64,000 nucleotides of DNA from Bacteroidales bacterium (GTDB lineage: Bacteria; Bacteroidota; Bacteroidia; Bacteroidales; UBA4181), in the NCBI GenBank assembly GCA_031275285.1, contig JAISOY010000061.1, positions 1 to 64,000 on the forward strand, read 5' to 3'. A program made the translations under genes and the position numbers. The notes under the pieces are model-generated. The model had not been told where the DNA came from. It searched no databases and saw only the letters and a list, made by a program, of their open reading frames with translations. This document shows, in pieces, positions 13,547-30,927 of the stretch. The first letter of the stretch is position 1. The number at the start of each line of letters is the position of its first letter.

Positions 13547-14230
13547 ATGAAAATATTGGTAATTGAGGACGAAAAAGAACTATCTAAAAATATCGTTAAG
13601 TTTTTATCAAATGACAGCTACCTTTGCGAGCAAGCCTATAATTTTGGTACAGCAATGGAAAAAATAACATTGTACAATTACGATTGCATTCTTCTTGATT
13701 TAAACCTCCCCGGCGGTGATGGTATTCAGATTTTGGAAGAAATTAAAGCCCGTAAAATAAACAGTGGTATTATTATCATATCCGCAAGAGGTTCGCTCAA
13801 TGATAAAATTGAAGGATTGAAAATAGGTGCGGACGATTACCTTTCTAAGCCATTTTCATTATCAGAATTAAGTATCCGCATTTATGTCCTTATCCGACGT
13901 CAGCAATTCTCGCATAACAATATTTTAAATTCCGGTGGTATAGAGATTGACCTACTTTCAAAGAGTGTGAAAGTAAAAGAGGAAATTGTCAATCTCACGA
14001 AGTCTGAATATGATCTTTTATTATTCCTTATAAACAACAAGTCCAGAGTTGTTTCCAAAGATGCTATCGCAGAACATCTTTCAGGAGATATGGCCGATAT
14101 GTTAGATAATCATAACTTTGTATATGCCCATATCAAAAACCTGAAAGCAAAATTTGCAGAGGCAGGTAGTACAAATATTATTAAAACCATTTATGGAACC
14201 GGATATCAATGGGTAGAACAAGAACGTTAG
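13547..14230 (+). CDS. OmpR/PhoB-family response regulator
   Basis: This 227-residue protein has a receiver domain (about residues 1-115). The acidic pair is in VIEDEKE, the phospho-acceptor Asp is in CILLDLNLP (Asp about residue 51), the conserved Ser is in IISARGS and the Lys is in YLSKPFS. An OmpR-type winged-helix DNA-binding domain follows (about 125-225, ending IKTIYGTGYQWV). Its stop lies inside the start of the kinase gene that follows, a 22-bp overlap, so the two are translationally coupled. It probably binds promoter DNA as a dimer; targets are unknown, though the adjacent lipid-modification genes are obvious candidates. Confidence 0.95.
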   Translation: MKILVIEDEKELSKNIVKFLSNDSYLCEQAYNFGTAMEKITLYNYDCILLDLNLPGGDGIQILEEIKARKINSGIIIISARGSLNDKIEGLKIGADDYLSKPFSLSELSIRIYVLIRRQQFSHNNILNSGGIEIDLLSKSVKVKEEIVNLTKSEYDLLLFLINNKSRVVSKDAIAEHLSGDMADMLDNHNFVYAHIKNLKAKFAEAGSTNIIKTIYGTGYQWVEQER

Positions 14231-15489
14231 CTATTAAAAGCATTTTTGGGTTTTTTCTCTACACGCTGTTGATCCTTTTATTTTGTGCCCCATTGCTATT
14301 TAAGGTCATGGAAAAATTCTATACAAAAGATCTGGATCAGTTGATAATATTTCGTCTTCAGGAATTTAAAAATAATCGACTGCCTTCGTTCAACACAGAA
14401 GATATCGAAGTATGGAACCGTTTCAATGAAGATATACTCATTTTACCTTTCGATAAAAAATATCCAGTGCAGGTAGTCAACCAAAAAAAGTTTTTCGATA
14501 AAGCAGAAGGGCATAATATTGATTTTCGTATTGTCTATGATACAATATTAATCGACTTCAACCCTTACATGTTGATGTCTCGGATACCAATGATTGAAAA
14601 ACATGATTTAATGAGGACTTTATCATCACAATATGGACTTTTATTTTTTGTTATATTGATTTCGTTGTCAACTGTTTACTATTATATGTCCAAGAAACTT
14701 TGGCGTCCGTTCCATTCGACACTTTCCAAAATACAGAATTTCAGCCTCGAAAAAGACGAACTGCCTAAATTCAGCAACACCAATACGACAGAGTTTGTTC
14801 AGTTGAACAGTATATTAAACGACCATATTTCCAATAACCTAAGCATATATAAAAAGCAGAAGGAATTTATAGAAAATGCATCACACGAACTCCAAACCCC
14901 ATTAGCAGTATTCAAATCACAATTAGATATGCTGCTCCAGCAACCTGATTTATCAAAGGAACAGATCGACATTATACAATCTTTATACTCAGTATCCTCC
15001 AGGATGACACGCCTGAATAAAAACCTTTTACTTTTAGCTCGTATAAACAATGACCAATATGGTAATATGGAAGATATAGATTTTGTTCAGACGTTATATA
15101 CTCAACTTCTATATTTACGTGAACGTGCCGAAAGTAATGGAATCAAGGTCAATGTTAGCATTGAAAAACCTTTGAACATTCATGCAAACAGGATATTGGT
15201 GGAAAGTTTGTTAACGAATCTAATCGTAAATGCCATACGGCACAATACTGAAGATGGAATAATTAATATCCGGGTATTTGATTGTGGGTTTGAAATATCA
15301 AATACAGGTGCGGCTCAAACACTTGAAAAGGATAAAATATTCAGGCGTTTTAATCGCACATCGGAGGAAAAGAAAGGTAATGGACTAGGTTTATCTATCG
15401 TTCATGAAATATGCAAAATGCATGGTTGGAAGACTCTATACGATTACAAAGATTGCCTACATAGTTTTGTTATTCGGTTTATTAAATAA
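14209..15489 (+). CDS. Sensor histidine kinase partner of the OmpR-type regulator
   Basis: This 426-residue protein has an N-terminal transmembrane segment (about residues 8-32), a periplasmic sensor region of about 110 residues and a second transmembrane segment (about 143-163). A HAMP-like linker and a HisKA domain with the phosphoacceptor in ENASHELQTPLAVF (His about residue 226) follow. The HATPase domain has an N-box in LLTNLIVNAIRHN and a G-box in GNGLGLSIVHEI. The ATG at 14209 overlaps the regulator gene by 22 bp. It probably senses an envelope signal and phosphorylates the regulator. A terminator lies 65 bp downstream. Confidence 0.95.
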   Translation: MGRTRTLAIKSIFGFFLYTLLILLFCAPLLFKVMEKFYTKDLDQLIIFRLQEFKNNRLPSFNTEDIEVWNRFNEDILILPFDKKYPVQVVNQKKFFDKAEGHNIDFRIVYDTILIDFNPYMLMSRIPMIEKHDLMRTLSSQYGLLFFVILISLSTVYYYMSKKLWRPFHSTLSKIQNFSLEKDELPKFSNTNTTEFVQLNSILNDHISNNLSIYKKQKEFIENASHELQTPLAVFKSQLDMLLQQPDLSKEQIDIIQSLYSVSSRMTRLNKNLLLLARINNDQYGNMEDIDFVQTLYTQLLYLRERAESNGIKVNVSIEKPLNIHANRILVESLLTNLIVNAIRHNTEDGIINIRVFDCGFEISNTGAAQTLEKDKIFRRFNRTSEEKKGNGLGLSIVHEICKMHGWKTLYDYKDCLHSFVIRFIK

Positions 15490-15743: not shown

Positions 15744-15751
15744 TATTTTTG
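15744..15751 (+). promoter_or_regulatory. Candidate -7 promoter element of the aromatic leader
   Basis: TATTTTTG fits TAnnTTTG and would start transcription near 15758, about a dozen bases before the leader-peptide ATG at 15771. No TTTG is found at the expected -33 spacing; an A-run lies upstream instead. Confidence 0.45.
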
Positions 15752-15770
15752 CAGGACAAATAATTGATAA

Positions 15771-15875
15771 ATGATTCAAAAGCACCATATGATTCAGTCT
15801 CTGTTCTCTTCCTTTTGGGGAGGTTATTTCTTTTACTTTTATTTTAGCCGGATAATGGTTCGGGAACGGAATTGA
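15771..15875 (+). CDS. Phe/Tyr/Trp-rich leader peptide of a transcription attenuator
   Basis: A 34-codon open frame (ATG 15771, TGA 15873-15875) encodes a peptide with the core FWGGYFFYFYF at residues 15-25. Overall it has six Phe, three Tyr and one Trp codon, nine of those ten within codons 15-25. It lies 70 bp upstream of prephenate dehydratase, the first step specific to Phe synthesis. A terminator follows between it and the gene. Such a cluster is the hallmark of leader peptides that sense charged tRNA-Phe and tRNA-Tyr by ribosome stalling. It is too short for normal gene calling. No Shine-Dalgarno is evident, as is usual in this phylum. Confidence 0.85.
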   Translation: MIQKHHMIQSLFSSFWGGYFFYFYFSRIMVRERN

Positions 15876-15933
15876 TATGTGTGTATAAAAATAAATCAGT
15901 GAATCCCGAAAGCAGATGTTTTCGGGATTTTTT
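15859..15933 (+). promoter_or_regulatory. Attenuator: antiterminator arm and terminator before pheA
   Basis: The terminator consists of AATCCCGAAA (15902-15911), a 7-base loop, TTTCGGGATT (15920-15929) and six T ending at 15933. A segment near the end of the leader peptide, TTCGGGA (15859-15865), is exactly complementary to TCCCGAA (15904-15910) and would form an alternative, antiterminating helix. A ribosome stalled on the aromatic codons (about 15813-15845) leaves 15859-15865 free, so the antiterminator forms. A ribosome that reaches the stop at 15873 covers it, so the terminator forms. The geometry is therefore correct for attenuation by Phe/Tyr availability. Confidence 0.8.
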
Positions 15934-15945
15934 ATTTAAAAACGG

Positions 15946-16800
15946 ATGTGTAAGGAACAAAAAGAGATCAAAGCAGCCATAATGGGCGGATATGGAACCT
16001 TCCATGAGATAGCAGCGCTTCATTACTTCAAAGATGTAGAAGTAGAAATCATCCCAAGTGAATCATTTGATGATCTTTTTCGTCTGATGAAGCAAGGAGC
16101 TGCACAACATGCAATATCAGCGATAGAAAATTCAGTGGCAGGAAGTATCTTACCTAATTATAATCTGATCAATAATTCTGATCTCCAGATAACAGGGGAG
16201 ATTTATCTGAGGGTATGCCAGAATTTAGTAGCCCTTTCCGGACAGACCATTGACGATCTGCATGAAGTTTATTCACACCCGATGGCTATCCTGCAATCCA
16301 AGCCTTTTTTTGATAAATATCCACATATTAAACTTATTGACGGACGCGACACGGCATCTTGTATGCGTGACATCAGTGTCAACGGATTGAAAGGAGTAGG
16401 TGCTATCGGCAGTCGTTACGCAGCAGAGAAATTCGATCTGGAGATATTGTCAGCAAGTATCGAAACCAATAAGAAAAATTATACCCGTTTCCTGATTTTA
16501 ACCGATAAAGAATATCTTCCCAGTAACAAATCATATAATAAGTCTTCCATTTCGTTTGCTTTGGCAGATGAAATAGGAAGTTTGTCGAAAGTATTATCTA
16601 TTTTTTCGTATTTCAATATCAACCTTAGTAAAATTCAGTCTTTACCCATTATCGGGAAAGAATGGGAATATCTTTTTTATGTTGATCTTGAATTCTCTAA
16701 TGAAGAGATATACCGGCAATCGCTGGTTTCAGTAGCACCTTTTATCAGTAACCTGAATATTATGGGAGAATATTGTAAAGGAAAAGTAATCTCTGAATAG
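15946..16800 (+). CDS. pheA: Prephenate dehydratase
   Basis: This 284-residue cytoplasmic enzyme converts prephenate to phenylpyruvate. The PDT domain spans about residues 8-185, with GGYGTFHEIAA at the start, the substrate motif AISAIENSVAGSI, and KNYTRFLIL carrying the catalytic TRF motif (Thr about residue 178). A regulatory ACT domain follows (about 205-275). It includes GSLSKVLSIFSYFNINLSKI and ends in QSLPIIGKEWEY, where family members have an ESRP motif; here the Glu and Arg positions read Gln and Leu. That could change feedback binding of Phe. It is the first structural gene behind the aromatic leader and is followed 37 bp later by DAHP synthase/chorismate mutase. Together they supply prephenate and use it for Phe. 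Confidence 0.93.
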   Translation: MCKEQKEIKAAIMGGYGTFHEIAALHYFKDVEVEIIPSESFDDLFRLMKQGAAQHAISAIENSVAGSILPNYNLINNSDLQITGEIYLRVCQNLVALSGQTIDDLHEVYSHPMAILQSKPFFDKYPHIKLIDGRDTASCMRDISVNGLKGVGAIGSRYAAEKFDLEILSASIETNKKNYTRFLILTDKEYLPSNKSYNKSSISFALADEIGSLSKVLSIFSYFNINLSKIQSLPIIGKEWEYLFYVDLEFSNEEIYRQSLVSVAPFISNLNIMGEYCKGKVISE

Positions 16801-16837: not shown

Positions 16838-17923
16838 ATGGAAATCAATTTAAATATATCCGAACCTTTAATTCCTGGTATTGATTGCACTAAGCCGATA
16901 ATACTGGCCGGTTCATGTAGTGCCGAAACAGAAGAGCAGGTAATGGCTACGGCACGACAACTGTCTGAAAATGGGATCGAGGTATTCCGTGCGGGAATCT
17001 GGAAACCCCGTACCCGTCCGAATGCTTTTGAAGGAGTTGGTTCGATCGGATTGTCCTGGTTGAAACGGGTAAAAGAAGAAACCGGAATGAGGATTGCTAC
17101 TGAAGTGGCTAATGTAAAGCATGTATATGATGCTTTGAAAAACGGAGTGGATGTACTTTGGATCGGTGCAAGAACTTCAGCTAATCCGTTTGCCGTACAG
17201 GAAATAGCTGATAGCCTGAAAGGGGTAAATGTTACTGTCCTTGTCAAAAATCCTGTAAATCCTGATGTCGAACTATGGATTGGGGCACTGGAAAGAATAA
17301 ATGCAGCCGGGGTAACCCACCTTGGCGCTATACACCGTGGTTTTTCCAGCTACGGAAAAAGCGAATACCGGAACGAACCACACTGGCAGATCCCGATAGA
17401 ATTGCGTCGTCGTGTTCCGAATCTTCCGATCATTGTGGATCCGAGCCATATTGCCGGAAAGCGTGATTTAATAATGGATTTATGTCAATCTGCACTGGAT
17501 CTCAATTTTGATGGATTGATCATTGAATCACATTGCGATCCGGATAATGCATGGAGTGATGCTGCACAACAGGTTACTCCCGAACACTTAGATTATATTA
17601 TTAAAAATCTGGTGCTTCGGTCTCAGGACGTTGATAACAAAAAGGCAGTAACATTGGAAGAATTACGAATGCAGATTGATAAACTGGATGATGAAGTGTT
17701 ACATCTGATGGAACAAAGAATGGCCATTGCTGAAAAGATAGGTTTTTTCAAAAAGGAAAACAATGTTACTATTTTCCAGTCTAACCGATGGCAGGAATTA
17801 TTGAAACAACGGATCAATATCGGTTTGTCGAAGGGATTAAGTACTGACTTTGTTCAAAAGATTTATACAGCTATCCATGAAGAATCTATTCAACATCAAA
17901 AAGCGATCATGAATAAAAAATGA
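16838..17923 (+). CDS. Bifunctional 3-deoxy-7-phosphoheptulonate synthase / chorismate mutase type II
   Basis: The protein has 361 residues in two parts. The first ~265 form a KDSA/DAHP-synthase-type barrel: LAGSCSAETEEQ at about 25-36, FRAGIWKPRTRPNAFEG, WIGARTSANPFAVQE, and the metal/substrate motifs VDPSHIAGKRD and IIESHCDP. These condense PEP with erythrose 4-phosphate. A helical AroQ-type chorismate mutase follows (about 270-355: EELRMQIDKLDDEVLHLMEQR in part, AIAEKIGFFKKEN). This fusion is normal in Bacteroidota and provides both entry to the shikimate pathway and the chorismate-to-prephenate step. It shares the operon and attenuator with pheA and ends in a strong terminator. Confidence 0.95.
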   Translation: MEINLNISEPLIPGIDCTKPIILAGSCSAETEEQVMATARQLSENGIEVFRAGIWKPRTRPNAFEGVGSIGLSWLKRVKEETGMRIATEVANVKHVYDALKNGVDVLWIGARTSANPFAVQEIADSLKGVNVTVLVKNPVNPDVELWIGALERINAAGVTHLGAIHRGFSSYGKSEYRNEPHWQIPIELRRRVPNLPIIVDPSHIAGKRDLIMDLCQSALDLNFDGLIIESHCDPDNAWSDAAQQVTPEHLDYIIKNLVLRSQDVDNKKAVTLEELRMQIDKLDDEVLHLMEQRMAIAEKIGFFKKENNVTIFQSNRWQELLKQRINIGLSKGLSTDFVQKIYTAIHEESIQHQKAIMNKK

Positions 17924-18066: not shown

Positions 18067-21000
18067 CTAATTAGGTTTGTTCGGAACACGGTATACCGGA
18101 CCAGTATCCGTACGTGGTTTTATTAAAATGGATTTTGTTGCACTACCCTGGCAACCGTTGTCATCGGTTACAGTTACAGATACGGTTTTCGTTCCGGTAT
18201 CGCTCCATGTAAAGTGTTCCTGACCGGTAGTTCCGGCACCTTCCATGGTACCACCCGTACCGGAAGCGATTGTCCACTGATAAATATCATAACCGGCATC
18301 GGTATCGAATATTACGCGGTCACCGATACAGGCCTCGTCAACACTGTTGATGGCCGGAGTAATATCAGGACAGGCTTCGGATACGAAAATATTTACTCTT
18401 GCAGTGTCGCAGGTTGCAGGCATATTGGAACATAATGTGTAAGTAAAGCCATCGGTGCCGATATAGTTCTGATCGGGAGTATATGTAAACGTACCATTAG
18501 CTGCATTGAAGGTCAGCTGACCGTGGTCCGGTTGCCTGATAACAGTGGCCGTCGGAACAGCACCCTGTGGGTATATATCGTTTTTCAGGACACCCTCAGC
18601 AGTATTGGATACAGTCAACACATCGTTTTCAACCACAACATATATATCAGGAAGTGCCACATGATGACCGGCAGAAATCTCATCGGATAATACCGTAATA
18701 TGAACTTGTGCTTTAGTACAGGCACCGTCCGGATCACATATCCGGTAAGTAAATGTATCAACACCAGTAAATCCTGCATTGGGCGTATAACTGAATGTAT
18801 TGCCGTTTTGTGTCAATGTACCTCCGGATACTCCCGAAACAAGTACAGGTGTAGATAATGCGTCACCATCAGGATCTATATCGTTCTTCCGTACATCGGA
18901 ATCCGTCAATGATTGTCCCATTTTGATAAGATAATCATCATCCTGTGCAACAGGCGCACGATTAGTAGAAGTCCTTGCATCCAATATAGTGATACGTAAC
19001 CATGCTGAAACTGTAAATCCGCAATAATTGACCACGGAGTATTGAATACTGTCTTTTCCTGTGAAGTCTATGTCTGGCGTATATGTATAGTTGCCATCTT
19101 TTGTTACTGTAATATTTCCGTTTTTCGGAGCAGTATGACTTGATACTGTTTGTACTGATCGGTCACTTTCGAAATCGTCCCAGACAAAATTACCGGTAAC
19201 ACTTTGGTTGACATAAGTGTATATGCGGTTATCCACAGCCTGCGCGAAATTGAACTTTTCACTGATTTCTATTCCTTCCAGTACCGAAGTACAACCGTTT
19301 GCATCTGTAAGCAATACATTGTATGTACCTGTGGAAAGTCCCCGGATAGTATCAGCACCGGCAGTTACGGGTATAGTGGTCATCCCGCCGTCCATGCTTA
19401 ATGTTAAGGGTGATGCATCACCTTTGATCGACAGGTAGATATTTCCGCCGTCCATGCCGTTACATGTTGCATGATCAATACCGGTCAAACTAACTGATAC
19501 TCCTGTCGTATTGATAATGCGGACTGTGTCAGAAGTTTCGCATCCGTCTGCGTCTTTAGCAAATATTTTATGTAATCCGGCACTAAGGTTAACCATTTCA
19601 GGTGAGTTGGCCATTGCTACCCAGCCTTTTCCATTTAAACGGTAACTATATTCAGGGGTTCCCCCGGTAAGCGTAATACTTGCCGTGCCGTTTGTATTAC
19701 AGGCCGATGGCGTAACCTGGCTGAGCATCATTTTCAGCCCGGAAGTCGCTGTTATTTCTACTTCACCGGCTGTAGCGATACAGTTGTCAGCATCCATCAC
19801 ATTGATCACATACCTTCCGGCCGGGAAACTGGTGCCGAGCACTCCGTCAGCCGGAAGAACAGCATAACTACCGTTATTTATCTGGTAACGATAGGGCGAG
19901 ACACCTCCATTCACCCGAAGTTTAATAGAGCCATCGCTACTTGTACAGTTTCCTGCGTTACCAGTCTGAACGGTTGCACGGAGATTACTGTTGGCCGGAT
20001 TCAGATTAACAGGATTACTGACAGATGGGGCACAACCCGCATAAAGTTTATCTTTAACATATACACGATAACTGCCTGCAGTAAGATTTTCAATCAGGCC
20101 ATTCGCCGGAAGGTCAGTATATGTTGCACCACCGTCGATACTGTACTGGTAGTCGCCACTACCGCCTGTTACGGTAAGCATGATACTTCCGTAGTCTGTC
20201 CCGCATTCGGGTAATGAAGTAACGCTGATCGAACCTATTTGCGGCATTTTGTTCACATTAACACCAAAGTACACTCCTTCGGAGTCACAGCCTGATCCGC
20301 TGCTCGCAATAGCCCAGTATAACGTTCCTTCCTGTAGCGTCACATAGAATGGTGTTTGGCTGGAAAGGAAGGTCAGGCTGCCGTCGGATTCTTCCCTGTA
20401 GAAGGACATTGTACCGCTACCGGTTGTTTCCCTGAAGAAATGACTCAGCTCAACCCGTGTGCCTTCGCAAACAGTAGTGTCACTGTTGCCGGTAAGTTCC
20501 AGCACAGGTATCTGGTTGACACGTACCGGGAAATATGTCCGGCTCAGTTCCCTTGGCGGACTGGTTGGTAGGCTGTATTGCGCCCATACGGTATAGTCGC
20601 CTTCTTTCGGCCACACGACCCTGGCTACATTTTCGTTGACATAGTTCACTTCGGAAGAACCTTCGAGAGGGATACGTACCGGCGTGGCTCCCGATACGCC
20701 GTCGGGCTTGATCACATTCCATTTGTAAGTCTGCATACCCGGAACGGTGTGATAATACGAGGTGTCGGCCTGGCAGATGGTGTCAGTACCCATGATGGTA
20801 GCCAGCGGGAAGATTCCTGTTTCGCAGAACGCATTCCCCCTTACCACGACTACCAGTTGTTTTTCCAGTTCAATATAAACGCTGTCGAACAGGAAGTCCA
20901 TCGTATCCGAAGGAGCTACGAGTGTCGAAAGGTGCACGAACGAACGTACTAATGTGTCGTCCGGAGTGAGTGTGCTGCTGTTGTCCCTGTCCACATAGAA

Positions 21001-24000
21001 ATCGAAGAAGAGTGAATCGCCGGCATAGAATTGTGTTTCCGCTTTCAGGAAAATATCCCCGTACCACAGGTCGTCAATTGTCCTTCCAAAACTGGCATCG
21101 GTAACACTGAACCTGTAACGTTCCACATCCATTGTCGGATAAACGCCTCCGCGCGTGGAGTTGAAAGCGCATTTTATGCCACGACACTCAGCAGAGTCGG
21201 TGTAGATAATCTCGCTATAGAAATCGTATGTGCCGCAAAGCGCGCCAATTGCATGGAATTTAAGTTCAACAATGATTTCATCACCTTCCTTGAGGCCGGA
21301 TAATACCGGCAGGCCGAACTCAACTCCGAACTGATCGATAATGGTTGTTATATGGCTTCTGTCGGGTGCGTTTTGTACCGGCTTATAACTTTCCGGTACT
21401 ACTGTCATTCCTTGCGGTATCAGCGCCACCATAGACTCTTTCTCGCCGGTAAGCTGGTCGCCATGTACTACCGCCCGCAGCTGCCATGTTACCGTGTCAT
21501 TGGTATTGTTGGTTACCATGTTGTGGCTGAACGTACTGAACAATTCGTATGTGTTCAGGTTCGCAGCATCCTGCTCGGTATAGAATATTGCCGTGGGAGC
21601 GGTAATTACCGGTAGTTTATTATCGCATCCGTCCGTGGCATAGAGATAGAAGTCCATGGGCGAACCGCTGTAGAAATCACATTCGGCAGCTACGGTTATC
21701 TGTACCTGCAACGAATCGCCATGTTGCAGTATATCCGGTAAATTCCATGTTGTTCCGGTAATATCGACCACAGAATCCGTCAATTCCGTCCATACACCCG
21801 AATTGTAGGGTTGCATTACAGATGCGCCCTTTATGGTCAATCCTGAGGCGTAGGTATCGTGCAACCTGAGTTGGAGATTGCTCAGGTCGCCCTCTTCGGT
21901 CGCCTTAATTTTCACCACATACATGGTGTCAACGCAGATTCCCTGATAACCTGACGGTTGATCTATCACTTCAAGCGATACATCGGTAAGCACCGGATGT
22001 ATTTGCAGGAATATGGTATCGGCAATATAACCACATACGGGCGAGCCATTATTAGCCATATCCCTTGCTCTTACAAACAATTTGACAGTGGTTCCTGCTT
22101 CCGTCGGGCCGGGAGTATAAGTTACATCCGCTACAAGGGCGCTTGGCGAAAACTGTGTTGTTACGGTTTCGTTCAATACTCCGTTTTTGTCATACCAACC
22201 ATACCACATTTCGCCGGTATAACTCGAAACGGCATTTAACCTGACGGTGCTGTTGTCACAGACACTCGTTCCGTCCGGCGCTTCGATATGCAGGGTTGGT
22301 TTCGCTAATACTTCTACTGTGATGTATTCCTGCATACTCGTACAACCGTTAACTTTGCTCTTAGCCTGCACGAAGTAAGTATTCGTTCCTGCCGGAGGCG
22401 TTACGGCAGTCGGATCGGCTATTTCTGTCGTTCCATCGATATCGAGGAAAGTATAATCTACCATATTGTCATCAGGGATCGCATCCGTCAGATCCACGAC
22501 AGTGCCTTCGCATAACATTTCCGGATTGGTCACATTAAACACCGGTAATGCAAATCCCGTGATTTTAATCATTTTGGTCGTGCTCAGGCAACCATTCGGT
22601 TGGGTAACTGCCTGCACATAGAAAGTGGTGTCGCCGGCGGCAATCATCACAGCATCGGGATCATCAACGGGAGTTACCCCATCGTTCTGATAGAAATTAT
22701 ATGCTGCGGATATATTGGACGCAACTAATTCTGCCAGATTGAAAGTGTGTTCGGCACAGACGGCGGTATCTCTCACCGAAATTACCGGGTTAGGGTTCGC
22801 AATGATAGTGAACGTATAAGTTTCGCCGTTGCAACCTCCTGCCTTCGCTAATACCGTGATGGTAGCCGTATCGGGCAATGCACTGGTATTGGTTACCGTA
22901 AATGCCGGTATAGAGGACGATGTTCCGCTTGCCGCCAACCCGATACCTGTTTTGTTGTTTGTCCACACGTATGTGGTTCCTGCCATCGTGCTGTAGAAAG
23001 TTACCGGCAATGATTCGTTCCCGTGGCATACTCCCTGTTCGGGAACATCGAAGGTTACAACCGGTATCGGTTTCCCGGTAACGGTGATCATCTTCATTTT
23101 CATCTCGCTCTTGCAACCCGTCGAATTATCGGTAGCCTGCACGAAATAAATGGATCCTGCAACCGGAACCCTCACGGCTTCGGGTGTAGCTACGGGCGTT
23201 TCCTGGTCATTTTCGTAGAAAATATAGGTCAACGAAGGATTTACAGGTACGGTTGTCCGCAGATCCACTGTTTCGCCCGGGCAAACAGCATCCGGATCGG
23301 TTACAGTAAAGTCGGGAGTTTCGTTCACGGTAAGGCCGGTGAAACTTGCTGTCCCCACACAAGTGGTCGAATTATCGACAACTTCAAGGTCTAACTGATG
23401 CGTTACATTATAATCCCAGTGAACTACCACAGAGTCAAGGTCAAACTCAACGATACTACCGCCTGTGATCGACCATGTATAAGTATAGCCGGTAGCATCA
23501 CCCGGTAAACCGGTTGCCTTATAGGTTGTCTCTACTCCTTCGCATACAACGGTTGCACCTGTGATGCCCGGTGTGGGCGGGATTTGTACTGTCACAACGG
23601 AAGCCTCACTCAATTCGCTTTCGCAACCTTCGGCAGTGAATCCCTGTACGGTAAAGCTACCTGCCTGTGTTTCATCTATGGTAATGGTAGCTGTGACGGC
23701 AAATGCTACACCATCCCTGTACCACTGGTAGGTGTTGTAATCCGACGCTTCCAGCGTTACGCTGCCGGTGCTGCAAATATGGCCGTTGTCGGGTGTCATG
23801 GCAACGGACGGAGCCGCCGGTTTCGGGCCAATCAGTATTTCGGCCTCATTGCTTTCAGAATTGCCGCAACTTGATTCCACCACATATTTCAATTTCTTAC
23901 CATGATCGGCGTCCGTAAATCTCTTGGTTGTCAGGTCAACGCGCACGCCGTCGAATAGCCAGTATACATCGCCTCGTGTTGCGCCCCGGTCATTAACAAT

Positions 24001-27000
24001 CACTGTTCCAGGAGTCAACAAACCGCCCGTGCATACCGTGAAATCATCGGCAATGCCGAGGATAACCGGTGGAGCATTTACCGTAACGGCTACGCCGATT
24101 GTGGTATCATTGCCGCAGGCAGAAGTAATGAAATAGCTCAATAAACTGCTGTTGTCGGCATATGTGAGGTCGGTCGTTGCCGGATCAAACGGAAGATTGT
24201 CCAGCAACCAACCCTGGCTAATAACAGGCGTACCATATTCGGTAACCACAGGTATTTGCGGGGTTATTTTATTGCCTTCGCAGATGGCGGCAGGAACTGT
24301 AACTATGCCTATTGTGGGTTTGTCGGTTACTGTAATATTGATGCTTACCGTAGTTTCGCATTTCGATGCCGTATGTACCACTTTCAGTTCAAGCGTCGGA
24401 GCGCCGCCCTGTTCCCATCTTACATTTACGGAAGCATTAATGTTGCTGCCTTGTATGGTACCGCCGCTGGCAGTCCATTCGTAAATGTAGTCTGCCGGGT
24501 TTCCGGTGAGGCCGCCAATGGTGTAATTTTCAATCACATCGTCGCATACGGAGATTGAACCTAAGATAACAGGCACAAGTGCAGCCTGTACGCTAACTGT
24601 TGAAGGTGCGCTCAATTCGCTCTGGCAACCGTCGGCGCTGGTTCCCTCCACGGTATAACTTCCCGTTTGGGTTTCGTCAACGGTGATGGTTGCGTTGGTG
24701 GAGAATGCTACGCCATCCTTGTACCACTGGTAAGTGGCATAGTTGGCTGTAGAAAGGGTTACGCTTCCCGTACTGCAGATAATTCCGTTGAGCGGACTCA
24801 TCACGATGTCGGGAGCTGTCGATTTGGCTTCGAATTGCAGCGTTGCTTCGTTACTTTCGAAAGTTCCGCAATCCGATTCCACCACATATTTCAGTTTTTT
24901 GCCTTCGTCGGATGATCCGAATACTTTAGTAGCGAGGTCTACCCGAACGCCGTCGAACATCCAGTAAGCATCGCTCACCGTAGCGCCGCCGGTTACAACA
25001 GGCGTGGTGATGGTCAACCGCGTATCTAAACAAACGGTTTGCGGGTCGGCAATATCCGTGATGCGGACGGCATTCACCGTGATGGCGACTGCCAGCGTGG
25101 TATCGTTGCCGCAAGCCGAAGCTGCGTAATATTGCAGCATCTTGCCGTGGTCATCATAAGTAACCGCAGTGGCCGGATCGAATGCCACTCCGCCGAGTAG
25201 CCAGCCCTGTGTGGTGACGGGTGTTCCGCGTTCAGTAACGGACGGAACCTGCGGGCTTATCTTACTGCCTTCGCAAACAGCAGCGAGTGCGGTGATGCTA
25301 CCTAGCAACGGTTTAGCATGAACGGTAATCCGGACGCCTTCGCTGATGGTTTCGCCTGATCCGCTTATTACTTTATATTGCAGTATTTTATTGTTATCGG
25401 TATAGGTCATTGTTGTCATAGCCGGATCGAATACCACTCCGCCGAGTAGCCAGCCTTTACTGACCAATGTCGCTCCGTGGAGATCGTAATCCGGTTCGGT
25501 TACTATGAGCAAATCGCCTTCACATACAGGAGCGGGCACAACGGGCTTGTCCACTGTAGGCTTACCTATAACGCTGATGATAATACTTGTACTTGCCGAA
25601 CAGCCATTGCTATTGGTGACAGTATAGGTGATTTCATGATCACCTTCGCCGGCTATGGCAGGATCGAAGAATGCTTTTCCTGCACTGGTTACCACGCCTA
25701 AGCCTGAAAAATCAGTATGAATGACATCACCACCAAAAACAGGAGTTCCGGTAAGGATGAATGTTCCTGAAGCGATACCTACTACCGTTTGTGTGTTGGT
25801 GATTTCCGGTTCGGGAGCCTGTAATACGATAACCATTACCGAATCCTTGCCGGCGCAATTAACATCTGCTATAGAATATACAATCCAGTGTTCGCCGGTT
25901 CCGGCTTCAACAGGATCGAACATGTTTCCGTTCATTCCGTTACCGGTTAAAGTACCACCGGCAGGATATACATCAATGATGATGGGCGCTTCGTTGGAAC
26001 AAATGGTTGCCGGAACATTGCTGAATGAAATATCCGGAGCGGGCAATACATTTATTTCAATGCTGTCCGCATTTGGGCAACCCTTATTGGTCACCGTATA
26101 GTATATCCGGTGCTGGCCGCTTCCGGAAAGAACAGGATCGAATGTTGAACCGGTTACGCCGTTACCACTGAATGTGCCACCTGCCGGAATTGCCGTCAGG
26201 GTTATCGAAGCATCGAACTGGCATATAGCCATGTTGTCCGTTGTGGTAATATCTACTGCTACTTTCTGCCCTACGCTTACCGTGACTTTCACCCGGTCGC
26301 TTTCGCAAAGGTCTTCGGAACTAACGTTGACCCAGACTTCGTAATCGGCTGTCAGTGCCGGCGTTTCAAATGTATCGCCCCTGCCGAGCAGGTTGCCGTC
26401 CGTAGCAGCATCCCACCATTTGAATTCGGGGTTGGCAACGGCTGCTGAGGCTACGGTGAGTATTGCCGTTTCTCCTTCGCATATACCGACATCTTCTGCT
26501 GTCGGCGCAGGAGCTTTATCTGTCGCAAGCCTGATTACCACCGGATCGGATGTTTTTGTGCAACCTGCCTGGGTGGTTACCGTTACGGTATGTGTACCCG
26601 GCGCTGCATCCTGCACACGGGTGGTGGCGCCGTTTGACCATATGTAGCGGTACGTCTGGCCATTCGGGGCTTCGTTGGCACTAAGGGTTATCTGCTCACC
26701 AGGACATACGGTGAATGTTCCGGCAGGTGAAATAATAGCTTCGGGAGTAAGATTCACCGTTACCTTAACGCTTGGTGAATATACCTTGCAACCTTTATTG
26801 TCGGTAAATACCATCATGTATTCGCCGGATTCGGTTACAGTAAGTTGTTGCCATGTTCCAACCGAAGTGGTGTCGGTTTCAGTCCAGCGCACCCATTCGT
26901 AAAATCCGGTGGTTGAGCGGCTACTGGTGAGTGTTACACTACCACCTTCGCAGAAGGTAGTGGTACCGCTGGTAGTAATGGACGGGGCAAGCAATGTAGA

Positions 27001-30000
27001 GCCGTCGCGAACTTCAACGCGCTGCGAAGTAATTTCGCACAGTTCGCCTTCCACAAGCGCGGAAACCGTTACGCGGTAATAGCCGGCCTGGGTTACGATA
27101 ATGCTCTTGGTGGTTTCGCCGGTGTTCCATTTATAGGTAACGTCGCGTCCCTGCGAATCGAATGCTTCGAGTTTCACCCAGCCGCCTGCTTTGCAAATAC
27201 TGACGGGGCCGGCAGGATATACTTCCACAGAGGCGGATGACAGGCTGCTCAGTTCGAGTGTTTCCGATCTGTTGCTACAGCCTGTAATCGTATCGGTAAT
27301 TGTCACTGCATAATTACCATTTTCGTCTATTACGATACCGAAGGTGTTTCCGTCAGGGTAATTCTCCCATACGCCTGGCGAAGTCTCCCATGTCCAGTTA
27401 TACTTATACAGGTCGGATTTGGTGGAAATAAGCGCTACCGTGAGGTCGGGACAAATATTGTTGGAACCGACCACGGTAATGTCGGGTTGGCGTGGAGCCA
27501 TGTTCACGTAAATATTCTTGTTGGGCGAACGGAAGACACAACCCTCGGGATAGGTGATCTCTACCCAGTAGGTTTGCGTACCGAAACGTGCCGGTGCATC
27601 ATAAACAATGGAAGATGTGGTTTCGGTCGTGTTCCATAAATAAGAAGAACCGGCAGGTGCATCAACTGAAAGTGTCAGCTTATCGCCCTGGCAGATGGTA
27701 TCCTTTGCGGAAACGATCACCGGCGAATAAACGGGTTTAACCGTAACGTCGATACTGTCTTTCTGGACGCAACCGTTCGCATCGGTTACGGCAACAATAT
27801 ACCGGTCTTCGACATTCGCATAGATCGACCGGGTAACAGCTCCTGTATTCCACAGATATGCTTCGCCGGCTGTTACGGTAAGCCTTACCGAATCGTATGC
27901 ACAGATATTCAGGTCGCCATTGGCAGAAATTACCGGCTTGGTGGTCGCAAAATCCGTGATGTATATCGTATTGGTGGTTTCAACACAACCACTCGTGCCC
28001 GTTACTTCGGCATAATATGCGCCTGCCGTTGTGGCGATGAACGTATCGTTGGTCCATGCAGGATTGTTGTTCCATACAAATGTGCTGCCTGCTTCGGCGC
28101 CATCTATAAAAAGGGCAATGCTTCCGCCGGGGCACAACTGGGTTCTGTCGTCTTCCGACCTGGCAAATACAAAATTGTCCGCCAGCATCACTACCATGGT
28201 ATCCGATACTGCACTGCAAGTAGTGGCATATTCAACAGCAACTACATATTTTCCGGTATCGGCAAGTGTAATGCTACGGGTTTCCTCGCCGGTATTCCAA
28301 TAATATGCCATCGCTGCGGTTGATTCCAGTGTTACCAGTGTTATCTGGTTGGGGCATATCCTGATGGTGTCGTTGGTAATCGTAAAGTTGGATGAAATAA
28401 TCGGTTTTTCCGGGGCTGCTGCCTCAGTTACCGTTACCGGCGCCGATACGAACTGGCATCCTTCGGCAGTGGTAATGATGACGGAATAGCTTCCGGCTGT
28501 TGTAACATTGATATCCGGGGCTGTTTCTCCGGTCGACCATCTGTGAGTGTATGATTCATCCACAGGCGTTACCATCAAAGTAAGCGGTTCGCTGCCGCAG
28601 ATCACGGCATTGCCGGCATCCACTATAGGAGTGATTTCTTCCACGCCGGTTACTTCAATCGCATCGGCCTGTACGGCACAGCCGTTGGCGTCATAAGCGA
28701 CGGCCGAATAACTTCCCGTATCGGCATAAGCCACAATAATACTCTGCGTGGTTTCGCCGTTGCTCCATAACCATGTATCACCCGCGCTGATGCTTAATGT
28801 TACCGTTGTACCGGGGCACAAATCCAATTGTCCGGATACGGCCTGTATTTCGGGTTGGATGGTTACGGCCACTTCAGTGAGTGCAAAATCTGCCGTTGAT
28901 GTACAACCATAAGCATCCTCCACCTTAAGGGTATAGGTTCCCTCAGCGTTCACCGTAATGGCTTGCGACTCCTCACCGGTCGACCAGGTGTATTTCGTTG
29001 CATCGGCAGCGGTGAGCGTCACGGAACCACCTTCACATAATACGGGATGCGATGCGGTGATGGCTGCCAAGGGGATTGTGGAGTTGTTCGAATTAACGGT
29101 TATTGCAGGTGCAGCAAACTGACAGCCCAATGTGTCAAGTACGGCATGATATACACCTGTTTCGCCGGCCTGTACTGTTGTGCCTGTTTCTCCCGTAAGG
29201 ATAGCGCCGTCCTTATACCACTGTATGTTGCCTGTGTGCGGCGCCAGTGAAAGGGTAACAGGCGTGTCGTAACATATGGTCAGACCATCGGGATATGAAA
29301 TTTCGGGGCGAACGTCGTGTACGATGATTTCCGCTGAATCGGCCGTAGCCTGGCAACCGTTGGTATCGGTGATGCGCACGGTATATTTCCCGGCTTCCGA
29401 TACGGAGATGGATTGTGATGTTGCACCGTTACTCCATTGATATGCTGTTGCTCCATCGTTGGCTGTTAAAGTCTGACTGATTCCGAAACATATTTCCGTT
29501 GTTCCGGCCGGTGTGATCGTTGCTACAGGAGCGACGGCTGTTCCGTCGATCAGTGTAACCGGATCGGAAGTAGCCTGACAGCCGTTAATGTCAGTGATGG
29601 TTACTGTGTAATTGCCGCCCTGGGTTAACCAGACGGTTCGGGTTGTAGCACCGTTACTCCACAGGTATTCGTGCGACTCGCTCGAACGAAGGGCAACCGA
29701 ACCGCCAACGCAAATCACGTTGGAACCTTCGATGGTAATGACCGGTTGCGGTATGTTTGTGATAAATTCGGCATAGAATACGGCTGAGGTATCCACGCAA
29801 CCTTCGGCGGAACCGAAACTGACCAGGCGAAATTCGCCTGATGTGGAAACCTGTATGTATTCATCCGTAGAATGGTCTCTCCAGTCTGCTCCGTCATAAC
29901 GTTGCCATTGCCGGCTATTGGCAGGCGAAGCGGTCAGCACGAGTTCTTTACCCACACATATAGGCATGACGCTTGTGGTCGAAATGACCGAAGGTTCCAG

Positions 30001-30927
30001 ATCAAGACAAGGAGGCACGTAACAGAATACAGCTGCATCCGTGCTTTCTCCGCCGCGATAGTAACCGCCCGTGGGTTCGCCAAGCGATACATCGTCGATA
30101 CAATCCTCAGCTATACCCACGCTTTCTCCACCGCCATAAAAGTTTTCGCCCGTGAGCGATTCCTCAAGTGTGTGACAGGCCGTTTCGGTAAGCATGATGC
30201 GTGACGAATCGCCGTTGAACATGCTGCCACCGGCCGATTCGAGCTCGAAACAGGAAATGGCCATCACACGCGAAGCGCCGCCTACAAACAAGGTGCCTTC
30301 GCCAAGCAACATATTGCTGCATGAAAGTATTTCCATATAGCTGCGTCCGCCCTGATACATGGGCAGGTCTACGTCGATGATCGCAGGTTTCTCAAGGCAG
30401 TTCACATAATAATCGTTGCTTGCACCGCCTTTATATATGCCGACTGTTTCACCGTCCGGAGTTAGTTGAACCGGCATACCGCAATACACGGCATCGCCAT
30501 AATTTCCACCTCCTGTATACGGTGTGGTTTCACCATCGGATAAGCGCATGGGTTCAATACAATCCAAAATCACAATAGTGGCGCTGCCACCCTTGTACAA
30601 TCCGTCTACTGTTTTGCCATCCACACTGAGTATTACATCGGGTTCGCATCCCATCAACGCATCGTTGGAATCACCGCCCTTGAAAATGGAAGATTCTTCG
30701 CCGATAACAGTTCCATCAGGAAATTGATAACAAGCCATGTTCATGTATCGTGAAATGCCGCCCAGGTAAATGTTGTTTTCAGCGGCTATTTGTGCAGATG
30801 CTTTATTGGTGAAAAACAAGGCAAAGAAGATGATTCCGATTAACCTTATTGCGTTGCCGGATCCCGGAGGATTTTGATCCCCCCGAGGTCGTATTACTTT
30901 GGATAATATGTGCAGATGATCGTACAA
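18067..30927 (-). CDS. Giant secreted multidomain adhesin-like protein (Ig-like, PKD, SprB and cadherin-like repeats)
   Basis: This is a 4286-residue protein. The only usable start in frame is a TTG at 30927; the first in-frame ATG lies behind the signal peptide (hydrophobic core about residues 28-40, likely cleavage after ASAQ, residue 46). Residues 53-305 hold ten ~26-residue repeats of the form Y-GG-S......C. About 14 Ig/PKD-like modules follow, each with a W(S/N)(N/T)G...T core and paired Cys. A tandemly duplicated ~330-residue block (GWLL / DGVRVD / YQWY-DGVAF / PKD) comes next, then NDG-TPV modules and a DUF11-like region. Four SprB-type modules, three cadherin-like modules (FTGVDTFTYRI type) and a last PKD-like domain complete it. 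It ends in TGPVYRVPNKPN. Neither a type A nor a CHU_C-type type IX secretion C-terminal domain is recognisable. The role is probably cell-surface adhesion; the ligand is unknown. Confidence 0.9.
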   Translation of the reverse strand: MYDHLHILSKVIRPRGDQNPPGSGNAIRLIGIIFFALFFTNKASAQIAAENNIYLGGISRYMNMACYQFPDGTVIGEESSIFKGGDSNDALMGCEPDVILSVDGKTVDGLYKGGSATIVILDCIEPMRLSDGETTPYTGGGNYGDAVYCGMPVQLTPDGETVGIYKGGASNDYYVNCLEKPAIIDVDLPMYQGGRSYMEILSCSNMLLGEGTLFVGGASRVMAISCFELESAGGSMFNGDSSRIMLTETACHTLEESLTGENFYGGGESVGIAEDCIDDVSLGEPTGGYYRGGESTDAAVFCYVPPCLDLEPSVISTTSVMPICVGKELVLTASPANSRQWQRYDGADWRDHSTDEYIQVSTSGEFRLVSFGSAEGCVDTSAVFYAEFITNIPQPVITIEGSNVICVGGSVALRSSESHEYLWSNGATTRTVWLTQGGNYTVTITDINGCQATSDPVTLIDGTAVAPVATITPAGTTEICFGISQTLTANDGATAYQWSNGATSQSISVSEAGKYTVRITDTNGCQATADSAEIIVHDVRPEISYPDGLTICYDTPVTLSLAPHTGNIQWYKDGAILTGETGTTVQAGETGVYHAVLDTLGCQFAAPAITVNSNNSTIPLAAITASHPVLCEGGSVTLTAADATKYTWSTGEESQAITVNAEGTYTLKVEDAYGCTSTADFALTEVAVTIQPEIQAVSGQLDLCPGTTVTLSISAGDTWLWSNGETTQSIIVAYADTGSYSAVAYDANGCAVQADAIEVTGVEEITPIVDAGNAVICGSEPLTLMVTPVDESYTHRWSTGETAPDINVTTAGSYSVIITTAEGCQFVSAPVTVTEAAAPEKPIISSNFTITNDTIRICPNQITLVTLESTAAMAYYWNTGEETRSITLADTGKYVVAVEYATTCSAVSDTMVVMLADNFVFARSEDDRTQLCPGGSIALFIDGAEAGSTFVWNNNPAWTNDTFIATTAGAYYAEVTGTSGCVETTNTIYITDFATTKPVISANGDLNICAYDSVRLTVTAGEAYLWNTGAVTRSIYANVEDRYIVAVTDANGCVQKDSIDVTVKPVYSPVIVSAKDTICQGDKLTLSVDAPAGSSYLWNTTETTSSIVYDAPARFGTQTYWVEITYPEGCVFRSPNKNIYVNMAPRQPDITVVGSNNICPDLTVALISTKSDLYKYNWTWETSPGVWENYPDGNTFGIVIDENGNYAVTITDTITGCSNRSETLELSSLSSASVEVYPAGPVSICKAGGWVKLEAFDSQGRDVTYKWNTGETTKSIIVTQAGYYRVTVSALVEGELCEITSQRVEVRDGSTLLAPSITTSGTTTFCEGGSVTLTSSRSTTGFYEWVRWTETDTTSVGTWQQLTVTESGEYMMVFTDNKGCKVYSPSVKVTVNLTPEAIISPAGTFTVCPGEQITLSANEAPNGQTYRYIWSNGATTRVQDAAPGTHTVTVTTQAGCTKTSDPVVIRLATDKAPAPTAEDVGICEGETAILTVASAAVANPEFKWWDAATDGNLLGRGDTFETPALTADYEVWVNVSSEDLCESDRVKVTVSVGQKVAVDITTTDNMAICQFDASITLTAIPAGGTFSGNGVTGSTFDPVLSGSGQHRIYYTVTNKGCPNADSIEINVLPAPDISFSNVPATICSNEAPIIIDVYPAGGTLTGNGMNGNMFDPVEAGTGEHWIVYSIADVNCAGKDSVMVIVLQAPEPEITNTQTVVGIASGTFILTGTPVFGGDVIHTDFSGLGVVTSAGKAFFDPAIAGEGDHEITYTVTNSNGCSASTSIIISVIGKPTVDKPVVPAPVCEGDLLIVTEPDYDLHGATLVSKGWLLGGVVFDPAMTTMTYTDNNKILQYKVISGSGETISEGVRITVHAKPLLGSITALAAVCEGSKISPQVPSVTERGTPVTTQGWLLGGVAFDPATAVTYDDHGKMLQYYAASACGNDTTLAVAITVNAVRITDIADPQTVCLDTRLTITTPVVTGGATVSDAYWMFDGVRVDLATKVFGSSDEGKKLKYVVESDCGTFESNEATLQFEAKSTAPDIVMSPLNGIICSTGSVTLSTANYATYQWYKDGVAFSTNATITVDETQTGSYTVEGTSADGCQSELSAPSTVSVQAALVPVILGSISVCDDVIENYTIGGLTGNPADYIYEWTASGGTIQGSNINASVNVRWEQGGAPTLELKVVHTASKCETTVSINITVTDKPTIGIVTVPAAICEGNKITPQIPVVTEYGTPVISQGWLLDNLPFDPATTDLTYADNSSLLSYFITSACGNDTTIGVAVTVNAPPVILGIADDFTVCTGGLLTPGTVIVNDRGATRGDVYWLFDGVRVDLTTKRFTDADHGKKLKYVVESSCGNSESNEAEILIGPKPAAPSVAMTPDNGHICSTGSVTLEASDYNTYQWYRDGVAFAVTATITIDETQAGSFTVQGFTAEGCESELSEASVVTVQIPPTPGITGATVVCEGVETTYKATGLPGDATGYTYTWSITGGSIVEFDLDSVVVHWDYNVTHQLDLEVVDNSTTCVGTASFTGLTVNETPDFTVTDPDAVCPGETVDLRTTVPVNPSLTYIFYENDQETPVATPEAVRVPVAGSIYFVQATDNSTGCKSEMKMKMITVTGKPIPVVTFDVPEQGVCHGNESLPVTFYSTMAGTTYVWTNNKTGIGLAASGTSSSIPAFTVTNTSALPDTATITVLAKAGGCNGETYTFTIIANPNPVISVRDTAVCAEHTFNLAELVASNISAAYNFYQNDGVTPVDDPDAVMIAAGDTTFYVQAVTQPNGCLSTTKMIKITGFALPVFNVTNPEMLCEGTVVDLTDAIPDDNMVDYTFLDIDGTTEIADPTAVTPPAGTNTYFVQAKSKVNGCTSMQEYITVEVLAKPTLHIEAPDGTSVCDNSTVRLNAVSSYTGEMWYGWYDKNGVLNETVTTQFSPSALVADVTYTPGPTEAGTTVKLFVRARDMANNGSPVCGYIADTIFLQIHPVLTDVSLEVIDQPSGYQGICVDTMYVVKIKATEEGDLSNLQLRLHDTYASGLTIKGASVMQPYNSGVWTELTDSVVDITGTTWNLPDILQHGDSLQVQITVAAECDFYSGSPMDFYLYATDGCDNKLPVITAPTAIFYTEQDAANLNTYELFSTFSHNMVTNNTNDTVTWQLRAVVHGDQLTGEKESMVALIPQGMTVVPESYKPVQNAPDRSHITTIIDQFGVEFGLPVLSGLKEGDEIIVELKFHAIGALCGTYDFYSEIIYTDSAECRGIKCAFNSTRGGVYPTMDVERYRFSVTDASFGRTIDDLWYGDIFLKAETQFYAGDSLFFDFYVDRDNSSTLTPDDTLVRSFVHLSTLVAPSDTMDFLFDSVYIELEKQLVVVVRGNAFCETGIFPLATIMGTDTICQADTSYYHTVPGMQTYKWNVIKPDGVSGATPVRIPLEGSSEVNYVNENVARVVWPKEGDYTVWAQYSLPTSPPRELSRTYFPVRVNQIPVLELTGNSDTTVCEGTRVELSHFFRETTGSGTMSFYREESDGSLTFLSSQTPFYVTLQEGTLYWAIASSGSGCDSEGVYFGVNVNKMPQIGSISVTSLPECGTDYGSIMLTVTGGSGDYQYSIDGGATYTDLPANGLIENLTAGSYRVYVKDKLYAGCAPSVSNPVNLNPANSNLRATVQTGNAGNCTSSDGSIKLRVNGGVSPYRYQINNGSYAVLPADGVLGTSFPAGRYVINVMDADNCIATAGEVEITATSGLKMMLSQVTPSACNTNGTASITLTGGTPEYSYRLNGKGWVAMANSPEMVNLSAGLHKIFAKDADGCETSDTVRIINTTGVSVSLTGIDHATCNGMDGGNIYLSIKGDASPLTLSMDGGMTTIPVTAGADTIRGLSTGTYNVLLTDANGCTSVLEGIEISEKFNFAQAVDNRIYTYVNQSVTGNFVWDDFESDRSVQTVSSHTAPKNGNITVTKDGNYTYTPDIDFTGKDSIQYSVVNYCGFTVSAWLRITILDARTSTNRAPVAQDDDYLIKMGQSLTDSDVRKNDIDPDGDALSTPVLVSGVSGGTLTQNGNTFSYTPNAGFTGVDTFTYRICDPDGACTKAQVHITVLSDEISAGHHVALPDIYVVVENDVLTVSNTAEGVLKNDIYPQGAVPTATVIRQPDHGQLTFNAANGTFTYTPDQNYIGTDGFTYTLCSNMPATCDTARVNIFVSEACPDITPAINSVDEACIGDRVIFDTDAGYDIYQWTIASGTGGTMEGAGTTGQEHFTWSDTGTKTVSVTVTDDNGCQGSATKSILIKPRTDTGPVYRVPNKPN
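23320..25314 (-). repeat. Tandem duplication of a ~330-residue block inside the giant adhesin
   Basis: Minus-strand units at about 25314-24326 and 24325-23320 encode the same ordered modules. These are CEG(S/N)KI-PQ with GWLL, a Y-FDGVRVDL module ending KKLKYVVES, ICSTGSVTL with TYQWY(K/R)DGVAF, and a PKD-like module ending in a CETT or CVGT stretch. The copies have diverged, so the event is old. Boundaries are approximate. Confidence 0.7.
30866..30883 (-). other. Hairpin with a six-G run between start codon and signal peptide of the giant adhesin
   Basis: On the plus strand GGAGGAT (30866-30872) and ATCCCCC (30877-30883) pair (one G-U) around a 4-base loop. The C-run at 30879-30884 reads as GGGGGG in the gene. 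It lies about 15 codons after the TTG start. It could slow translation or be a slippage-prone site. Confidence 0.4.

Follow-up and report, generated by a model that had tools for sequence, protein, structure and literature searches.

A Phe/Tyr transcription attenuator predicted upstream of pheA and conserved in Bacteroidia

The pheA gene of a Bacteroidales bacterium, contained in the window analyzed here (a contiguous stretch of 64,000 nucleotides), is preceded by a short ORF rich in Phe and Tyr codons near a predicted transcript start, by an intrinsic terminator before the first gene of the operon, and by an antiterminator strand that competes for the terminator and covaries with it. We consider it highly probable, from comparison of the sequences, that these elements constitute a ribosome-mediated transcription attenuator of pheA and the adjoining DAHP synthase/chorismate mutase gene that senses charged tRNA-Phe and tRNA-Tyr. 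The mechanism is already known; what is new is its near-universality in the class Bacteroidia, the mixture of Phe and Tyr codons, the quantified spacing and the tandem forms.

Anatomy of the pheA leader

The earlier note on this DNA had described a 34-codon frame upstream of pheA, and the sequence and its translation bear this out, the encoded peptide being MIQKHHMIQSLFSSFWGGYFFYFYFSRIMVRERN (Table 1). The codons of its YFFYFYF run begin 34 to 16 nt upstream of the antiterminator start. A Leu-rich alternative frame (TTG at 15764) was rejected, as other frames over the run are seldom started by ATG in relatives. Bacteroidetes promoters have a -7 element with the consensus TAnnTTTG. A match to it, TATTTTTGC, has its last base 19 nt 5' of the leader ATG and predicts a transcript start near position 15758. 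The motif was present at 90 of 142 loci, versus 21 loci on the reverse strand, and among these 90 it lies mostly 14-36 nt 5' of the leader ATG, a fairly fixed distance.

Table 1. Features of the pheA leader and operon in the window
Feature	Positions	Strand	Basis
Predicted promoter -7 element, TATTTTTGC	15744..15752	+	Fits Bacteroidetes TAnnTTTG
Leader peptide ORF, 34 sense codons, ATG 15771 to TGA 15873-15875	15771..15875	+	Sequence, translation, class-wide conservation
Sensing run YFFYFYF (putative stall codons)	15825..15845	+	Aromatic codons conserved in this zone
Weak hairpin CCGGAU/GUUCGG, candidate region 1:2 protecting segment 2	15848..15863	+	Minimum free energy fold
Segment 2 (antiterminator strand), TTCGGGA	15859..15865	+	Complementary to 15904-15910; clade invariance; class-wide covariation
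Intrinsic terminator (segments 3 and 4), 13-pair stem followed by T run	15901..15930	+	Fold; presence in nearly all relatives
Segment 3 core, TCCCGAA, pairing with 15859-15865 or inside the terminator	15904..15910	+	Sequence
pheA, regulated gene 1, encoding prephenate dehydratase with an ACT region at the C terminus	15946..16800	+	Pfam PDT 4.6e-48
DAHP synthase/chorismate mutase fusion, regulated gene 2	16838..17923	+	Pfam DAHP_synth_1 1.6e-37, CM_2 8.2e-22

An intrinsic terminator had been reported 27 bp after the leader stop; it is present, although it begins 25 nt past the stop. The proposed complementarity of segment 2 to the 5' arm of the terminator is perfect. Predicted energies in the window are -16.1 kcal/mol for the terminator versus -11.4 kcal/mol for the duplex of segments 2 and 3 (2:3), and their means over 144 loci are approximately equal (-15.2 and -15.4 kcal/mol, respectively). 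A strong helix protecting segment 2 (region 1) was sought across the loci and is not evident in most of them, so an untranslated leader might either terminate or read through. The CCGGAU/GUUCGG hairpin of the window is not conserved class-wide as an ungapped helix, and the score for an ungapped 1:2 helix (10.8) is near the shuffled level (10.1). Segment 2 is somewhat less accessible with its native upstream sequence, having an unpaired probability of 0.256 versus 0.366 when that sequence is shuffled.

Pfam matches confirm the operon content claimed previously, pheA followed by a DAHP synthase/chorismate mutase gene that starts 37 nt downstream; the match of pheA to the ACT domain is weak (7.7e-5, under the curated cut-off). 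Prephenate dehydratase, DAHP synthase and chorismate mutase serve the synthesis of Phe and Tyr, the same amino acids that the leader is predicted to sense. Elsewhere in the window, positions 18067-30927 of the opposite strand hold a repeat-rich ORF of 4286 amino acids, read from a TTG, that resembles the large secreted cell-surface proteins of Bacteroidota.

Conservation of the leader across Bacteroidia

Loci of pheA were drawn from related genomes and from a phylum-wide sample, and 450 nt upstream of each was scanned. An ORF counted as an aromatic leader when 6 or more of 10 residues were aromatic, the full set being such a leader together with a terminator and a helix between a segment following the run and the 5' arm of the terminator. 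For the class Bacteroidia 156 distinct loci were sampled, a few of them on contigs labelled otherwise. Aromatic leader ORFs were found at 147 of these loci and the full set at 134, the remaining 22 failing the strict criteria; a terminator before pheA was found in nearly all relatives. Among 1560 dinucleotide shuffles, leader-type ORFs occurred in 85 and the full set in a single one, and the 156 reverse strands yielded 8 leader-type ORFs and no full set. The loci gathered come from Parapedobacter, Ancylomarina (both of which have the element), Carboxylicivirga, Desertivirga and Paradesertivirga, among others, as well as from metagenome-assembled genomes labelled Saprospiraceae, Prevotellaceae, Bacteroidaceae and Paludibacteraceae. 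The refutation test set beforehand was absence of the small frame from close relatives; the frame with its Phe and Tyr codons is kept in close and distant relatives alike.

Two complete Phe/Tyr attenuators, with leader, antiterminator and terminator all present in both units, stand in tandem before pheA at 17 loci (L010, L029, L037, L040, L043, L059, L060, L071, L073, L075, L077, L078, L079, L081, L082, L098 and L196). At one locus of a close relative (L004, from the same record as L033), the leader frame reaches the terminator without meeting an in-frame stop and continues into pheA, owing either to an error in the sequence or to a genuine frameshift.

In other classes of the phylum, 30 of 33 loci (L140-L172) are without an attenuator, a weak case (L148) being counted as none. 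Attenuators outside the class Bacteroidia were seen at L146, L160, L165 and L112. The pheA genes of these four are closer to the query than those of most other non-Bacteroidia genomes, which suggests that pheA and its attenuator may have been transferred horizontally together.

Amino acids sensed

The runs of 144 leaders contain 1196 aromatic codons, namely 658 for Phe, 482 for Tyr and 56 for Trp. Both Phe and Tyr are present in 141 of the 144 runs, and none has more than one Trp. All four Phe and Tyr codons (TTT, TTC, TAT and TAC) are used, and 142 of the 144 frames start at ATG; read in the other frames, the run seldom lies in an ORF that opens with ATG (8 and 6 of 144). The mixed codon usage and the ATG starts point to selection that acts at the level of the peptide and not solely at that of the nucleotides. 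Control by Phe and Tyr, possibly with Trp, had been proposed at the outset; codon content agrees with the first two, and Trp is unlikely to matter for sensing, given its 56 codons among 1196 and the position of the single TGG of the window, which at about 43 nt 5' of the antiterminator falls outside the conserved zone of 15-38 nt. The Phe/Tyr mixture fits an operon feeding the synthesis of both amino acids.

Covariation and spacing of the alternative helix

In the nine loci of the window's clade TTCGGGA is invariant, and the spacer has drifted. Across the class the helix is wholly different in sequence, as in GAGCAGGA/TCCTGCTC (L024), AAGGTGAGGC/GCCTCACCTT (L093) and GCCGGGACT/AGTCCCGGC (L096). 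Over 144 loci the mean helix score was 18.6 with a locus's own terminator arm versus 13.3 with permuted arms (standard deviation of the permuted mean 0.22; z 23.7, a descriptive value, since the loci share descent and are not independent, and arms common to relatives narrow the gap between own and foreign scores). The own arm scored above the median of foreign arms at 136 of the 144 loci. The alternative pairing is thus conserved with covariation, a check that the earlier note had proposed.

The antiterminator strand starts 10.6 +/- 3.1 nt past the last aromatic codon, versus 14.6 +/- 9.4 nt in shuffles; the helix was searched only 3' of that codon, which sets the lower bound of this spacing by construction but not its narrow spread. 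Aromatic codons are conserved 15-38 nt before the antiterminator, reaching 97% at 18-23 nt and declining beyond about 40 nt. Where the stop codon falls with respect to the antiterminator start is more variable, with a standard deviation of 14.5 nt. Counted from the first base of its A-site codon, a ribosome has its front edge about 13 nt ahead. With this spacing, a ribosome stalled on the last Phe or Tyr codon would just clear the antiterminator strand, and with the stop position of the window a ribosome at the stop would cover it. A narrow distance from run to antiterminator together with a wandering stop is what the front edge of a stalled ribosome predicts.

Proposed mechanism and alternatives

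From these parts, their conservation, covariation and spacing, we infer a sequence of coupling, stalling, termination and read-through as follows. Transcription would begin about 13 nt 5' of the leader ATG, with a ribosome trailing the polymerase. When Phe and Tyr are ample, the ribosome would pass the YFFYFYF run and reach the UGA at 15873, where its footprint would hide TTCGGGA, leaving TCCCGAA free to form the terminator (3:4), and transcription would stop before pheA. When either amino acid is scarce, the ribosome would stall within the run with its front edge just short of 15859; TTCGGGA would then pair with TCCCGAA (2:3), the terminator would fail to form, and transcription would run on through pheA and the DAHP synthase/chorismate mutase gene.

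The leader might instead act through translation, by re-initiation or by an effect on mRNA stability, rather than through transcription termination. A few loci have a loose geometry, the stop lying as far as about 28 nt beyond the start of the helix, such that a terminating ribosome may miss segment 2. Against this, the hairpin and its T run end shortly 5' of pheA in nearly all loci, the competing helix targets that very hairpin, and the gap from stop to pheA is usually 55-180 nt, which allows no tight coupling for re-initiation. We therefore regard a translational mode of action as very unlikely.

Even less probable is that the terminator merely ends transcription of the upstream two-component system (13547-15489) and that the Phe/Tyr frame arises by chance from T-rich sequence. 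The two-component system genes do run in the same direction as pheA, and FYFYF-type runs number 20 in the genome versus 24 for a control pattern, the frequency expected by chance in an AT-rich genome, so that the run by itself was rejected as evidence. A promoter is nevertheless predicted between the two-component system genes and the leader, and among the FYFYF-type runs of the genome the full architecture occurs only at pheA. Chance is ruled out by conservation, as given by the contrast of the sampled loci with their shuffles and reverse strands, and a chance frame is refuted by the class-wide association of leader, antiterminator and terminator before pheA, with covariation.

It is just as hard to credit that a trans-acting sensor (a T-box, an RNA-binding protein or a riboswitch ligand) controls the terminator while the peptide is incidental: some 5' structure does exist, in that upstream sequence lowers the accessibility of segment 2, but what has been conserved is the Phe/Tyr run with its spacing from segment 2, and an Rfam scan of the window and 20 related loci detected no leader or T-box family at the gathering score, the only matches being to tmRNA and one tRNA elsewhere.

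Other amino-acid attenuators in Bacteroidia

Most sampled hisG loci (L200-L216) have His-rich leaders followed by a terminator, and most sampled trpE loci (L221-L233) have WW or WWW leaders followed by a terminator; neither set has a shuffled control. The genome of the window carries a leader, MNIVLTNNFWWWRSQLFRVVNS, upstream of trpE (L273, about 1130-1280 of contig C198). A TATATTTGC promoter and a strong terminator accompany this WWW leader, which is probably the Trp attenuator of the genome. The antiterminator here seemingly pairs with the loop and 3' arm of the terminator and not with the 5' arm. An initial scan upstream of trpE came up empty because an additional ORF lies between the WWW leader and trpE. 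Upstream of hisG in the same genome, no leader was found. Before ilvD (at 24202 of contig C98; L301), the genome has a VVVV leader, MNLISISHIVSLVVVVLISKN, with a terminator and a 13-nt antiterminator, probably a Val (branched-chain) attenuator; a comparable VVVV leader precedes ilvD at L295. These His, Trp and Val leaders repeat the logic seen at pheA and add to the case for attenuation there. At the cut-offs used, no Thr/Ile leaders were found before thrA.

It is conceivable, and we put it forward only tentatively, that attenuation is the ancestral and dominant control of amino-acid synthesis in Bacteroidia (Phe/Tyr, Trp, His and branched-chain), in a streamlined form that dispenses with a strong protector hairpin. 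If so, an untranslated leader would read through rather than terminate, and the stacked attenuators of some lineages would give a steeper response.

Relation to known systems and significance

The pheA attenuator of E. coli is pheL, represented in Rfam by the Phe_leader family. The element described here resembles it in having a short Phe-rich leader upstream of pheA, antiterminator and terminator helices that exclude each other, and the logic of ribosome stalling. It differs in lacking an Rfam match, in mixing Phe and Tyr codons, in an operon that includes the shared DAHP synthase/chorismate mutase, and in its 1:2 hairpin, which in the classical case is strong and at most Bacteroidia loci is weak or not apparent. 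As in the trp, his, thr, ilv and leu attenuators of Proteobacteria and the trp and ilv attenuators of Actinobacteria, control codons would let a stalled ribosome free the antiterminator strand; taxon and sequence are different.

Naville and Gautheret (2010) stated that, as far as they knew, leader-peptide systems had been demonstrated in Proteobacteria and Actinobacteria alone, to which they added Firmicutes (PMC2965389). Within the same bacterial class as the window, a transcriptome study of Flavobacterium psychrophilum mentions "strong clues" for leader-peptide attenuation at amino-acid operons, in a main-text passage that does not name the operons and gives no sequence, structure or class-wide analysis (PMC9723704). 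A transcript map of B. thetaiotaomicron reports small ORFs reminiscent of attenuation leaders (PMC7366714). The mgtCBR leader of Salmonella is a known case of tandem attenuators (PMC3641672), in a system different from the tandem Phe/Tyr attenuators. In the main texts of openly readable papers we found no published description of the Bacteroidia pheA element. A search for literature on transcription-translation coupling in Bacteroidota likewise returned no paper.

Bacteroidia are dominant in animal guts and in many further habitats, yet little has been described of how their amino-acid synthesis is controlled. Their genes mostly do without Shine-Dalgarno signals. The near-universal presence of a Phe/Tyr attenuator leads to the prediction that translation keeps close behind transcription at these leaders. 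The anatomy of the element and its narrow spacing rule provide a basis for annotation rules, and the attenuator would explain a class of small ORFs that gene callers overlook.
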